NCBI GenBank assembly: GCA_021809755.1
Contig: JAJZJZ010000014.1
Span: forward strand, 1-32,006
Origin: Thermoplasmata archaeon
GTDB taxonomy: Archaea; Thermoplasmatota; Thermoplasmata; Thermoplasmatales; Thermoplasmataceae
Length of the DNA stretch: 32,006 nt
Reading direction: 5' to 3'
The position numbers were made by a program, and so were the translations under genes. Position 1 is the first letter of the stretch, and the number at the start of each line of letters is the position of its first letter. The notes under the pieces were generated by a model. It was not told the DNA's origin. It worked only from the letters and a program-made list of their open reading frames with translations, and searched no databases. This document shows, one piece after another, positions 16,064 to 21,930 of this stretch.

Positions 16064-19000
16064 GTGAACGGTAAGCGTTTTTTAATTATAATCAGTATCT
16101 TAACGATATTAATGATGATTGTACCTAATTTTCAGTCATCAGGAAATATTTTGAACAATTCTCCAACTCAAGTAACCCCCTCAAACTTTCTGAATGCACC
16201 CGTTAAGAGTGATATATCTAACAGCATCCTATCTGCCAATATTAACACGGATGCATTCATTGCAGATGGAAACAGTACAATTTCCATCCTGAACACCCAG
16301 GGAACAGCACCTGTTCAATATCTATTTCTGGGCGCAAAGGCATCAATCTCCAGCAGCGTTGCCGTTACTCCCAACGGATCATCAATTCTTGTGGGCACTT
16401 CCAATGATATGGGGTTGAACATAATCAACACAACCACCCTTCAAACCATGAAAATAATACCAACACCTGCAACAAAAGATGAATCAAATATCACAATATC
16501 ACCAAACGGATACTATGCGTATGTATCAGGTTCAGATTCATATAACATTTCAGTTGTTTCTCTTCTTACCTATACAGTTCTGAAAGTGCTCAATGTTTCA
16601 TACGATCCCGGTAAAATGGTCATTTCCCTCAATGGAACAATGGGATTTTCTTTCAGCGGAAAGACTCCAGCAGGGGGAACATCTGAAACATTCACTGAAA
16701 TAAACACCACTTCAAACAAAGTGATAGCTAACATAACCAATGGCAATTTAAATAATCCAGATACCGGTGCATTTTCTCCAAATGGAACATATCTTTTAAT
16801 AGGAAACAAAGGAAATTGCACTATTTCTGTAGCGAAGTTCACCCCTGATGGATTGGATATTTACTCCCATTTCAATCCCGGTGCAAAGACTCAAAGCATT
16901 ATATTTAACCTTCAGGGAACTGAGATTTACATTGGCGGAAAAAATCCAGAGTCACACACAAACAAAGGGGGAGCCTATGTGTCTGTATACAACACAAAAG
17001 GATTTTCATATAGCTATTCAATTAACCTGACTCAAACAAACTCTTCTTCGGTTGTTGGTATGTCTTTGGTTTCAATCAGCACTCTTTATGTGAGCATAAA
17101 AAATCCAAATATGATAGTGAAGGTGGGAATAGGGCTATCTAGTCTAAGTACCATCTTGTGTAACGATGGAAACTTAACGAATCCATTGACTCCAGGACAG
17201 ATAACATATTTCCACACTGCATTCTATATAAGTTTTAAGGTATTTGAGAGTGGCTTAGCTGCTAAGAGTAATTGGAATTTGCTTTTGGGAGGAGTAAATT
17301 ACAATTCCAACAAAACATATGTAAACGTAACATCATATTACGGTTCACAACCATATATTTTGTCATCTCCAAACTATTATCTTTTCCATAATTCCAGTGG
17401 TTATCTCAATGTAAACTTTACTTCTTCATTCAGCTTTGAAGCATATTATGCTTTGAATTCCAATGAAAGCAGGAATTATGCCATATTAAGTGAAAACTCT
17501 ACATGTACAGGGTCTCCGGTTCTTAGTACTGTGAACAACACATATCTGGCATCACTTCCCACAGGTTATAAATCACTTTCCAATGCAATAACGCCTAATG
17601 GAACCCTACTACTTTCTCTTGATGATTATACTATTCCATCTCTTAGGATAATTAACATGCACACTTTTCAACAGATTGCTAACATCTCACTTCCAAATGA
17701 AATAAATCCATGTTTTGTCTCTATAAACCCGGATGGCCTTTATGCCTATGTCAGTGCTTTTAGTTCCAATCTTTCTGTAATTTCACTTGAAACTTTAAGT
17801 ATAGTTAAAGTACTTAATGTCAGTTTTGCCCCCAGCCACATGGCATTCCTTCCAAATGGAACAGAGGGCTTTACCACATCCGTGAGCAACTACAATTGTA
17901 AAGGAACTCCCAAGAATTTTACTGTAATTAACACAGAAACCAATACTGTCATAAAAAATGTCACTAATGCTAATCTTAGCAATTCAGGCAACGATGCTGT
18001 TTCTCCAAATGGAACTTACCTTGTCATTTCTAATAATCACAATGTTACTATATTCAACACAAAAACATTGAACATTGTAAAGAGCGTTCAAATAAATAGG
18101 TATTATATTGGTACTGTAAAATTTAGTCCAAACGGCTCAAAGCTCTACGTAACATCAAATTATTTCGGCAATGTCAATTTTAGTGAAATATGGATGAGTA
18201 ATTTCACTTTGCATACCATATTTTCTTCAAATAACGTAGGCACACATTTTGCCTTCAACAGAAACGAATCAGAGGTATATTTTCCGGGTTCAAATTCAAT
18301 AGCAGTAGCTTATAACATGGATAACTTTAGCAAATTTACAGATATAAAAGCATATTCTAATGGTTATAGTCGCATAATAATTCCCGCATCTTCTTATTAT
18401 GGTTCAGTCAACTTTATTGAAAATGGATTATCCGCAAACACCCCATGGTCATTAACTCTAAACGGATTAAAATACACTTCCACATGTTCCAAAATAACCG
18501 CATATTCTTTCACAGGCATTCAGAATTATTCCATCAATATACCGACAGGATATATGTTATCAGAAAGGAACAGCGGTCAGATCATGGTCTCATATGAAAA
18601 CAATACTGTCAACCTGACATTCATCATCCCGGCAATCACCTTCAAAGAAACCGGACTTGGTTCAAACCCAATATGGTATCTTGAGATTAATGGATACAAC
18701 TCATCAAAGGAAATCACATCAGGCATTTACAATACGGGTTTACTATTTGGAACATATGAGGCAATAGCTTCTTCACCATATGCACAGACCTATTACCTGA
18801 ATTTCACATTCAGCACCACAGGTCAGACCTTCACCATTCCATTCAAGGCACAATATAACTTTTCAGTTTCTCAAACAGGATTATCCAATGTCATATGGTA
18901 TCTGAACATAACAAACAAAACAGGAATGGTTTCACAGATGAGTGGAACCGGTTTGACCTTAACTTCGACTCTGATCAACGGTTCATACAACTATACCGTA

Positions 19001-19441
19001 TCATCATCCAATAAGATCTATAAACCTTCCGTATATTATGGAAATTTCACAATAAATGGTTCTTCATATGCAATTAGAGAAGTATTCATACCTCAAACAT
19101 ATAATGTTACATTCTCAGAAACAGGCTTACCATCAGGTATCGTCTGGTACGTGAACTTAACAAATGGTATGAAATCAGGTCCAATAACCATCCCCACGTA
19201 TACATTTTTGGTTACAAACGGCTCTGTAGGCTATACCATATCAGGAACAGGAGGATATTCTGCAAACAAGACTTCAGGCAGCATTACAGTCAATGGATAT
19301 AACATATCAATATCCATGAAATTTAGCAAACCATCATCTTCGGCACCACCAACCACTCAGATAGAAGAATATTTAATCATCGGTGCAGTTGTGGCAATAG
19401 CACTTATTGGAGCATTCATATGGAAACGGAGGTCTCCATAA
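16064..19441 (+). CDS. Large membrane-anchored surface protein with duplicated beta-propeller and ETGL modules
   Basis: 1125 residues, GTG start. Signal peptide 1-25, then an exported region rich in N-glycosylation sequons, ending in a single TM helix at about 1103-1120 and a basic KRRSP tail. Residues about 60-370 are a YVTN/NHL-like beta-propeller with blades such as ITISPNGYYAYVSGSD and AFSPNGTYLLIGNK. About 385-465 follows a module of ESGL-x-W type. The same two-part unit recurs: a second propeller at 470-775 (VSINPDGLYAYVS, KFSPNGSKLYVTSN) and then four ETGL modules (near 785, 860, 935, 1017) with the pattern FxETGLPSGxxWYVNLTNG, known from thermopsin-like and other Thermoplasmatales surface proteins. 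Likely an S-layer-like or adhesive protein; precise role unknown. Confidence 0.85.
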   Translation: MNGKRFLIIISILTILMMIVPNFQSSGNILNNSPTQVTPSNFLNAPVKSDISNSILSANINTDAFIADGNSTISILNTQGTAPVQYLFLGAKASISSSVAVTPNGSSILVGTSNDMGLNIINTTTLQTMKIIPTPATKDESNITISPNGYYAYVSGSDSYNISVVSLLTYTVLKVLNVSYDPGKMVISLNGTMGFSFSGKTPAGGTSETFTEINTTSNKVIANITNGNLNNPDTGAFSPNGTYLLIGNKGNCTISVAKFTPDGLDIYSHFNPGAKTQSIIFNLQGTEIYIGGKNPESHTNKGGAYVSVYNTKGFSYSYSINLTQTNSSSVVGMSLVSISTLYVSIKNPNMIVKVGIGLSSLSTILCNDGNLTNPLTPGQITYFHTAFYISFKVFESGLAAKSNWNLLLGGVNYNSNKTYVNVTSYYGSQPYILSSPNYYLFHNSSGYLNVNFTSSFSFEAYYALNSNESRNYAILSENSTCTGSPVLSTVNNTYLASLPTGYKSLSNAITPNGTLLLSLDDYTIPSLRIINMHTFQQIANISLPNEINPCFVSINPDGLYAYVSAFSSNLSVISLETLSIVKVLNVSFAPSHMAFLPNGTEGFTTSVSNYNCKGTPKNFTVINTETNTVIKNVTNANLSNSGNDAVSPNGTYLVISNNHNVTIFNTKTLNIVKSVQINRYYIGTVKFSPNGSKLYVTSNYFGNVNFSEIWMSNFTLHTIFSSNNVGTHFAFNRNESEVYFPGSNSIAVAYNMDNFSKFTDIKAYSNGYSRIIIPASSYYGSVNFIENGLSANTPWSLTLNGLKYTSTCSKITAYSFTGIQNYSINIPTGYMLSERNSGQIMVSYENNTVNLTFIIPAITFKETGLGSNPIWYLEINGYNSSKEITSGIYNTGLLFGTYEAIASSPYAQTYYLNFTFSTTGQTFTIPFKAQYNFSVSQTGLSNVIWYLNITNKTGMVSQMSGTGLTLTSTLINGSYNYTVSSSNKIYKPSVYYGNFTINGSSYAIREVFIPQTYNVTFSETGLPSGIVWYVNLTNGMKSGPITIPTYTFLVTNGSVGYTISGTGGYSANKTSGSITVNGYNISISMKFSKPSSSAPPTTQIEEYLIIGAVVAIALIGAFIWKRRSP

Positions 19442-19846
19442 ATTTTATTTGGTTCATCACGCTTTTTTATGGGTCTTCATTACGGAAATCACACAAAAGT
19501 TATGAGAATAGCAGATTTTCCGGTAAATTAATCACTTCACAGATAATAATATGTTCTGGAAATTGTACGGAACCCACTCAAAAATAGAAATGTACATTCA
19601 TTACCCACATGAAAGCCCGGAGTGCCTTTTATTTTACAATTGATCCAAACAATCAAAATCTGATGAGATTTCTTTAATAGTTCAATGTAAATAAATTGGC
19701 ATTGACAAGTTTTCCTGAATGGCTCAGAGAGTTCGAAAAACTCTTTAATTCTCTCACAGGTCTGCCTCATCTAATTAATTCTAAATATGATTTACCAATT
19801 AGAAAACTGCTTAAATCACCCACTAATTGTAAGTATTATTGAACAA
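19442..19846. other. 405-bp intergenic region before the AbiE-like locus
   Basis: No convincing gene. A T6 tract at 19463-19468 can terminate the surface-protein transcript. A 48-codon frame from TTG 19696 (LALTSFPEWLREFEKLFNSL and on) has a protein-like composition and runs into the AbiE promoter; it may be a gene remnant. From 19791 the operator-like repeats of the AbiE locus begin. Confidence 0.4.
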
Positions 19847-19862
19847 TTTACCAATTGGTAAA
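19791..19862. promoter_or_regulatory. Operator-like repeats of the AbiE-type locus
   Basis: TTTACCAATTGGTAAA (19847-19862) is a perfect 16-bp palindrome lying three bases before ATG 19866. Its left ten bases, TTTACCAATT, recur exactly at 19791-19800, and a degenerate copy CACTAATTGTAAG lies between them (19821-19833). Spacing is about 30 and 26 bp. AbiEi antitoxins of type IV systems are known to repress their own promoter by binding inverted repeats, which this arrangement fits. A TATA-like CTTAAATC is at 19810-19817. Confidence 0.6.
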
Positions 19863-19865
19863 AAT

Positions 19866-20948
19866 ATGTATTCTACTAAATTACGCTCAATGAATAAGCG
19901 GGAAATCATAGCCAAACTGGCTGAAAAACTACCAATTCTACTGCCGAACATGAATATAGAAGACATATCATTTGATGTACCAATAGACAAGTACCATCGT
20001 TCCGATATGAAGGTTAAAGTTAGAACTGGAAGTCTTAAAAAATACTTGCTAATCGAGGTTAAATCTAATGGAGAACCCAGAATTGTTCAAAGTTCCATTT
20101 ATCAACTCAAAAAATATCTAGAGGAAGATAAGGGAGTTTACCCAGTATTTGCCGCTTCTTACATTAGTGAGAGATCAAGAGAAATTTTAGTCTCTGAAAA
20201 CATTGGTTATATTGATTTAATCGGGGATGTATACCTAAAATTTGACTCAGTCCTCGTAGATCGTATAAGCAACGTTGAGAGGGAGACAGAAAAACGATTC
20301 AGTCGCGGTATTTTTGCAACCAAATCCACGCGCATTATAAGGGCTATCCTGAATGATGTAGATAAGAGATGGAAGATAACAGAACTTGCCAATATCTGTA
20401 AAATGAGTCCCGCAGGTGTTTACTTTGTCATAAATCAGCTTGAAGATAAAGGCTACGTTTCAAGAGAAAGCGACAGGAGCATTAAGGTTATGGAGCACAA
20501 AAGACTTCTCAAAGACTGGGCATCGAACTGGACAGTAGAAAAGAGCAAATCGTCCAGTTTCTTCTCGTTTGCAAAAAATGTGGATGAAATAATATCAAAG
20601 GTTGCCAATGCTGGAAATGAATTGAATTTAAAATATGCACTTACAGGAATGGCTGGGGCTTCTATGGTATCTCCGTTTGTTCGTTACAATGATGTCTGGG
20701 TCTACGTATCGGGCGACATAGATACCATGGTAAAGAAACTTGATGTAAGACCAACAACATCTGGAGCCAATTTGAAGATTTTCAATCCCTATGATGAAGG
20801 TATTTTCATGGATTATAGGAAAATCAGAGATGTAAACGTAGTAAGTAATATCCAGCTATACGTAGATCTGTTCACATATCCGGCTCGTGGGGAGGAGCAG
20901 GTAGAAAGGATTCTTGAGAAAAGTTTGGAGGAGGTAGATAAAAATTGA
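19866..20948 (+). CDS. AbiEi-like antitoxin/regulator of a type IV toxin-antitoxin locus, with nuclease-like N-terminal domain
   Basis: About 360 residues. Residues 25-135 look like a PD-(D/E)XK-type fold: D47 in HRSDMKVKV, then a strand LLIEVKSNGEPR with E64 and K66, followed by a helix and GYIDLIGDVYLKF. Residues about 152-206 are a winged helix (WKITELANICKMSPAGVYFV). The C-terminal half (YALTGMAGASMVSPFVRYND, WVYVSGDIDTM, then LYVDLFTYPARGEEQVERIL) matches AbiEi/COG4861-like archaeal proteins. A TTG at 19839 would add nine residues but would place the palindrome inside the gene. The next gene overlaps it as TTGA. Antitoxin identity comes from family and context; the nuclease-like reading is inference. 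Confidence 0.78.
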   Translation: MYSTKLRSMNKREIIAKLAEKLPILLPNMNIEDISFDVPIDKYHRSDMKVKVRTGSLKKYLLIEVKSNGEPRIVQSSIYQLKKYLEEDKGVYPVFAASYISERSREILVSENIGYIDLIGDVYLKFDSVLVDRISNVERETEKRFSRGIFATKSTRIIRAILNDVDKRWKITELANICKMSPAGVYFVINQLEDKGYVSRESDRSIKVMEHKRLLKDWASNWTVEKSKSSSFFSFAKNVDEIISKVANAGNELNLKYALTGMAGASMVSPFVRYNDVWVYVSGDIDTMVKKLDVRPTTSGANLKIFNPYDEGIFMDYRKIRDVNVVSNIQLYVDLFTYPARGEEQVERILEKSLEEVDKN

Positions 20949-21792
20949 AGACGCGTTTCTCTTCAGATTTTGAAGATCAATTGATTGTTTCATCAAAAAG
21001 TGCTCTTGTTGAGCCAACTCGAATTTTAAAGCCTTATAGTGAGGCAATTGTTCCAATTGGAGGCTGGGTGCACTATCTACTATTGGAGTCTTATAATGCC
21101 CAAGATGACAATTTCAAACATGTAGGTTCAATCGATATTGATCTTCTCGTGGACCCTAATCGGGTGGGGGAAAACGAATATCAAACAATTGTAGAATTGA
21201 TAGAAGTTACAGGATGGGAGTAAGTGCAAGGAAAACAGTTTACTTTCAAGAGGGGTATTAAGGGTAAGGATGGCGTTTATAGAGAGATAACGGCGGATTT
21301 TCTAACATCTTCAGAGAAAAAAGTGAGGGGAGAGAACACCGGCATAGAGGGGTACAACCTGATCTAAAAGCAAGAACAATGTTTGGTGCGGAAATAGGTT
21401 TAACGCACAATTTCTGGAACAATATGAAGGGTGAGATGCCAAATGGTGCTATGACTGAAGTTGATTTCAAGATGCTTGATGTAGTGGGATGTATTGGTAC
21501 CAAAGGTATAGCATTGGGAAACCGTTACAAACACAAAGATGCTTATGACATAGTATCAGTATTGGATCACTATGGAAATGGCGTAAATGATGTATCAAAA
21601 GCATTTAAACCATATTTGGATGAAATTCAAATACAGGAATCTCTAAAGAGAATTCGTGAAAAGTTTTCTAACGAAAAATCAGAAGGTCCTCTGTTATATG
21701 CAGAGTTTTTGGAAGCGTCAGACGTGGAGACGAAGGATGTCTTTGCGCGAAGAGGTTTCATGCTCGTTTCAGAATTCCTAGAAAAATTGTGA
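20945..21792 (+). pseudogene. AbiEii-like nucleotidyltransferase toxin, disrupted
   Basis: Starts at TTG 20945, overlapping the previous stop, with GGAGGAGGT ten bases upstream. Residues 1-92 include GGWVHYLL and HVGSIDIDLLVDP, the nucleotidyltransferase GS...DxD core of AbiEii/AbiGii toxins. A TAA at 21221 interrupts the frame after TGWE; the same frame then reads on (GKQFTFKRGIKGKDGVYREI) to about 21330, where the homology moves to another frame (HRHRGVQPDLKARTMFGAEI) and runs to 21792. The shift fits loss of one G in the GGGG tract at 21327-21330. In type IV systems this protein is the toxin; two lesions suggest it is inactive here. Confidence 0.8.
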
Positions 21793-21930
21793 TTGAATGT
21801 TTACAGATGAAAATCCAGAGCTTTGAAGCGCAAGGAATCCTACTATCACCTATACAGAAAGTTCTGTAGATTCCATCTTCAACCCAAAATATAAAAAATC
21901 TGGGAAGCGATCCCATTTAGAGAGTATTCT

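Follow-up and report, generated by a model that had tools for sequence, protein, structure and literature searches.

Why should an archaeal genome keep an intact antitoxin gene directly ahead of a toxin gene that can no longer be read through? The question is raised by a locus in the window, by which we mean the whole stretch of 32,006 nucleotides analyzed here, corresponding to contig C44 of a 2.08-Mb draft genome in 179 contigs. A first-pass annotation, made from the sequence letters alone, had described the locus as an AbiE-family pair with a dead toxin and a retained antitoxin, and had named a homology search among the checks that could overturn this reading. That search places both genes in the AbiEi and AbiEii families.

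The antitoxin gene lies on the forward strand and is intact, as first described, with a frame that is unbroken from 19866 to 20948 and encodes an AbiEi-type protein of 360 amino acids. The frame is open from a TTG at 19839 or, more likely, from the ATG at 19866, and its stop ends at 20948. The earlier start of the locus at 19791 thus gives way to 19866, with 19791 instead being the first base of a degenerate second operator palindrome described below. The identification is based on a match to PF09952 (AbiEi_2) across residues 207–353 (E = 1.2e-9, 39.1 bits against a Pfam cut-off of 21) and on full-length homologs from bacterial plasmids that adjoin AbiEii genes. Ahead of the AbiEi_2 domain are a winged helix at residues ~152–207, for which the Pfam matches are weak (residues ~152–215) and strongest in the homolog from the relative G086, and an N-terminal domain at residues ~10–120.

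The PD-(D/E)XK signature consists of an aspartate followed by (D/E)xK on an alpha-beta-beta-beta-alpha-beta core. The N-terminal domain of the antitoxin (window 19866–20225) resembles it through D47 and E64-x-K66, and in the alignment D47 and [ED]64-x-K66 are retained in most archaeal and bacterial homologs and lost in Deinococcus. The predicted order of helices and strands also fits this fold, in a low-confidence AlphaFold model that was built from four sequences, has a mean pLDDT of 44, and is usable for the winged helix only. Sequence searches against solved structures gave no useful relative. We found no literature report of a PD-(D/E)XK domain in AbiEi, a weak negative given that the spelling is hard to search. 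We therefore treat the PD-(D/E)XK-like assignment as a lead rather than a result.

The toxin gene begins inside the end of the antitoxin gene, as the first-pass annotation had seen: its TTG start at 20945 falls within the antitoxin stop TGA to form a 4-base TTGA overlap. This TTG is retained, with one exception, in the toxin genes of relatives for which the start is covered. The 5′ part of the gene (20945–21223, forward strand) contains GG (motif I) and DxD (motif II), including the nucleotidyltransferase core HVGSIDIDLLVDP that had been picked out at first reading, and is terminated after 92 codons by the premature stop TAA at 21221–21223, where relatives have a glutamine codon. Residues 1–129 of an intact relative match this first frame (67% identity) up to 21334, and residues 123–280 match another frame from 21313 onward. 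From the overlap of the two matching frames at 21313–21334, together with a DNA alignment, we place a frameshift in this interval. The one-base loss previously proposed for the G tract at 21327–21330 therefore stands as a frameshift, whose interval includes the tract, but not as to the exact base, since an A tract also lies inside the interval and the relatives are too variable here. The 3′ part (21379–21792, forward strand, in the other frame) contains K...R (motif III) and KDxxD (motif IV), is 70% identical to the intact relative, and has weak matches to AbiEii in PADLOC (E = 5.3e-5) and, below cut-off, in Pfam (E = 0.0028). Both pieces match the intact relative far above chance (67–70% identity, E down to 1.9e-73). 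An alignment of toxins gives G39 and G40, D64 and D66, K186/R193, and K197, D198/D201 as the invariant residues, and motifs I–IV are unchanged across the two fragments in the window. With the stop at 21221 and the frameshift at 21313–21334, the locus is a degraded member of its family.

Relatives of both proteins are found on bacterial plasmids, where tblastn returned full-length matches to the antitoxin in 63 records and to the toxin of an intact relative in 28 records. In the plasmid records that were opened (n = 6) the two genes are adjacent and in the same order, with the 4-base overlap present in three of the six (both Sphingobium records and Deinococcus), and most of the homologs carry the NCBI names type IV AbiEi family antitoxin and AbiEii/AbiGii toxin. 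PF08843 (AbiEii/DUF1814) matches the intact toxin of G086 above its cut-off (25.1 bits versus 22.5) and that of a second relative, G030:C71, below it (16.8 bits). No relatives of either protein were found in viral contigs.

Four AbiEii/DUF1814 motifs and two pairings, COG5340–COG2253 (AbiE proper) and COG4861–COG4849, have been described by Dy et al. (PMC3985639). Because the antitoxin is long and carries AbiEi_2 (Pfam; PMC3985639), we would assign the pair to the COG4861–COG4849 branch rather than to the classic and better-studied COG5340–COG2253 AbiE. A COG5340-type antitoxin would be short with an N-terminal winged helix, whereas the window antitoxin has 360 residues, a winged helix in mid-protein, and AbiEi_2. 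The locus shares with COG4861–COG4849 pairs (PF09952 with PF08843) its gene order, 4-base overlap, AbiEi_2 domain, winged helix, and nucleotidyltransferase motifs I–IV, and full-length homologs of this branch occur on plasmids of Sphingobium, Comamonas, Mesorhizobium, Polymorphum, and Deinococcus. It differs from these bacterial members in its archaeal host, its broken toxin, and an identity of only ~23–29%. Compared with the classic AbiE of Streptococcus agalactiae (PMC3985639), the likeness lies in a two-gene operon with the antitoxin first, a winged helix combined with inverted repeats, and a nucleotidyltransferase toxin (hGG...DhD, motif III, +DxxD motif IV). However, the window antitoxin has an additional N-terminal domain of ~145 amino acids ahead of the winged helix, the spacing between motifs I and II is 23 residues in toxins of the window type versus 15 in classic AbiEii, and COG5340 antitoxins have no detectable sequence relationship to the AbiEi_2 branch (PMC3985639). 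AbiE is already known in archaea (PMC12988326), and one Thermoplasmatales genome is reported to have an AbiEi gene adjoining a nucleotidyltransferase (PMC10354927). A type IV pair would show toxicity that is neutralized with no stable complex being formed. In the related MenAT systems, the assignment to a type is a matter of dispute (PMC11375011).

The module occupies a segment (19451–21929) that is missing between collinear flanks in the same-genus genome G003, where window positions 19450 and 21930 map 93 bases apart (L100 8684 and 8777). The flanking genes are mostly ~78–97% identical at the protein level, with 66% for a large surface-protein gene. G002, in which the region is partly covered, has no module there and carries a decayed antitoxin remnant at another site. 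The empty site in G003 and the lack of a module in G002 mean that the module is an insertion of ~2.5 kb in the window lineage or has been cleanly lost in the others; no target-site duplication of at least 8 bases was found. Adjoining the insertion is a gene (16064–19441) for a repeat-rich, surface-protein-like product of 1125 amino acids, whose C-terminal part matches G003 twice and which is thus internally repeated. In relatives, several copies of the module sit close to tRNA genes, namely tRNA-Glu in G082 and G086, tRNA-Val in G014, and tRNA-Leu in G019 (~0.1 kb from abiEi), and the G002 remnant lies near tRNA-Ser. These neighborhoods look as if they were insertion sites of the module.

Directly 5′ of the antitoxin ATG is a perfect palindrome, TTTACCAATTGGTAAA (19847–19862), that represents a putative AbiEi operator and occurs about once per abiEi copy per genome. 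A palindrome of the form TTTACC-N4-GGTAAA precedes the antitoxin start at all nine loci with an intact antitoxin identified in this study (see below), with both 6-base arms identical and a variable center. It ends 3 bases before the ATG, or 12 bases in G014, where the aligned frame begins later. Conservation upstream of the palindrome is much lower, with a mean of 0.53 at −60 to −31. Alignment of the nine upstream regions, anchored on the palindrome, reveals a degenerate TATA-like box in the window (TTGTAAGTAT, 19827–19836, forward strand), and most relatives have the TATA-like TTTTAAATAT at the corresponding place. By sequence reading, a degenerate second operator-like site with two mismatches to the proximal palindrome (TTTACCAATTAGAAAA, 19791–19806) lies ~40 bases farther upstream and, among the nine loci, is present in the window only. 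The layout of the palindrome would fit an autorepressor such as S. agalactiae AbiEi, which acts on inverted repeats (PMC3985639); for the window antitoxin, binding to the palindrome is predicted by this analogy.

The first-pass annotation had proposed reading the same locus in close relatives, and doing so shows the combination of dead toxin and intact antitoxin to be a recurrent state. A search of 117 genomes of the order yielded nine loci with an intact antitoxin, of which two have an intact pair (G030:C71 and G086) and seven, including the window, have a dead toxin. Besides the stop and frameshift of the window, the toxin lesions comprise loss of the start codon with a frameshift near codon 10 (G030:C79), a stop near codon 27–31 (G031:C26), a stop near codon 41 with a change in the DxD motif and an internal deletion (G019), a frameshift near codon 96 (G020), frameshifts and stops with the 3′ part gone (G014), and reduction to 32 remaining codons (G082). 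As all of these lesions differ, the inactivations are independent. The opposite state is seen in G079, which has an open toxin and an antitoxin that is frameshifted near residue 280; this frameshift may be a sequencing error in the metagenome assembly. Seven loci thus have only the toxin broken and one has only the antitoxin broken (p = 0.015 in a binomial test against gene length, for eight events with loci treated as independent). Antitoxin decay also occurs: the gene is wholly decayed in G002, and in G104 it has perhaps decayed as well.

Elsewhere in the window genome there are four further AbiEii genes (three on contig C49 and one on C83), each adjoining its own AbiEi-like gene. The first-pass annotation had proposed looking for a second intact AbiEii-like gene that the antitoxin could neutralize; no unpartnered AbiEii was found for this role, and no second AbiEi_2 antitoxin or relative of the window toxin was found in this genome. 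With antitoxins of 190–282 amino acids, the four other pairs are COG5340–COG2253-like by our reading. None of their toxins is closely related to that of the window, so cross-neutralization by the window antitoxin would not be expected. Two of these shorter-antitoxin pairs lie on opposite strands of C49, ~0.7 kb apart.

The homology, the lesions, the empty site, the recurrence in relatives, and the conservation of the operator together point to a horizontally acquired AbiE module of the AbiEi_2, COG4861–COG4849 branch that is decaying, with the toxin lost first, and we consider this account probable. In the intact form, we infer, the winged-helix antitoxin would bind the palindrome over its own promoter and repress the operon, and would counteract the nucleotidyltransferase toxin translated from the overlapping TTG start. 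In the window genome, two lesions have inactivated the toxin. Since the antitoxin gene and its putative operator are intact, production of the antitoxin probably continues, and it would still repress its own promoter alone. The toxin would be expected to die first because earlier loss of the antitoxin would poison the cell. G079 contradicts this order, unless its frameshift stems from an error in sequencing or the truncated protein still functions. The antitoxin would then persist for a time, possibly aided by the protection it gives against later-arriving related modules.

Why the antitoxin remains is less certain than the decay itself. Pure lag, in which the toxin broke recently and the antitoxin has not had time to follow, has close to an even chance of being the whole answer. 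At 67–70% identity, the window toxin is still similar to the intact toxins of relatives (which are 74–75% alike among themselves), its motifs I–IV are unchanged, and the wholly decayed antitoxin of G002 shows that this gene can go too. What lag explains less well is the older ruins in G014 and G082 (32 toxin codons), where the antitoxin frame is still open and the operator arms are still perfect.

Alternatively, selection could keep the antitoxin as an antidote (anti-addiction) against closely related AbiE modules spread by mobile DNA within its habitat, a reading that we regard as possible but distinctly less probable. It would accommodate the seven independent toxin losses with antitoxin and operator intact, and the presence in G030 of an intact pair alongside another antitoxin whose toxin is dead. 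Orphan antitoxins, already described in bacteria, have been proposed as possible anti-addiction modules in Klebsiella (PMC7192599). The Klebsiella pneumoniae orphans likewise have no functional toxin beside the antitoxin and include type IV families, but that survey is bacterial and mostly of type II, whereas here distinct lesions are traced within one archaeal family.

The antidote reading can also be viewed through G014, where decay of the toxin is far advanced. On the G014 branch we count 29 changes over 357 sites in what is left of the toxin (22 nonsynonymous, 7 synonymous) and 20 over 1071 sites in the antitoxin (10 to 10), compared with 20 (11 to 9) in the paired antitoxin of the close sister locus G030:C71. 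The orphan has thus changed no faster than its paired sister, which is suggestive. We do not take this comparison as firm evidence that the orphan is under selection, because the nonsynonymous-to-synonymous contrast shifts with the polarization threshold and the sister toxin is also faster; as the toxin part diverges more than the antitoxin in the lineage with the intact pair as well, a slowly changing antitoxin is not peculiar to orphans. Pairwise antitoxin dN/dS values, mostly 0.09–0.21 at dS ~0.6–1.4, mix the time before and after toxin loss. The numbers are small, moreover, and recent losses such as that in the window are explained by simple lag.

A stronger version, which we think improbable, would give the AbiEi_2 antitoxin with its PD-(D/E)XK-like domain a useful job of its own, either as an antidote against incoming relatives or through a DNA-directed activity, such that selection repeatedly drops the toxin and keeps the self-regulated antitoxin.

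That the lesions are sequencing or assembly errors and the toxin is really intact is most unlikely. The source assembly is fragmented into its 179 contigs and 86% complete, and the toxin indel sits near homopolymers. Nevertheless, the 0.85-kb toxin gene has two lesions of different type, while no lesion was seen in at least nine conserved window genes, each of which matches G003 over its full length as a single piece. Two lesions in one such gene amid unbroken neighbors make random assembly error unlikely, and the toxin is also broken in G014 and G019, both single-contig genomes.

Finally, the suggestion that the antitoxin now regulates other loci finds no support in the distribution of its putative operator. 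A search for perfect arms across 16 genomes found the palindrome at abiEi copies or the G002 remnant and at two further sites, one in G018 and one in G104, a number similar to the background given by a reversed-pattern control. The G104 site (contig C84) was rejected as a regulatory target: it lies inside an elongation-factor-like gene (EF-2-like by reading) and is hence a chance match. Although a winged-helix protein with a well-conserved putative operator could in principle be turned to such a use, the palindrome occurs once in the window genome, before abiEi, and elsewhere is limited to these two chance-level matches among the perfect sites searched, so the antitoxin probably represses only itself and a wider regulatory role is highly doubtful.

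The decay described here is of a known kind and not a new system, and its modest addition is a set of toxin genes lost independently of one another next to a conserved self-control site. Together, the locus and its relatives make up a small natural series that runs from intact pairs through dead toxins to a few remaining toxin codons, with independent lesions and a conserved operator. The loci supply test candidates for the little-studied COG4861–COG4849 branch, and within a single archaeal family the series allows tests of the order of decay in addiction modules and of whether orphan antitoxins protect against further copies.
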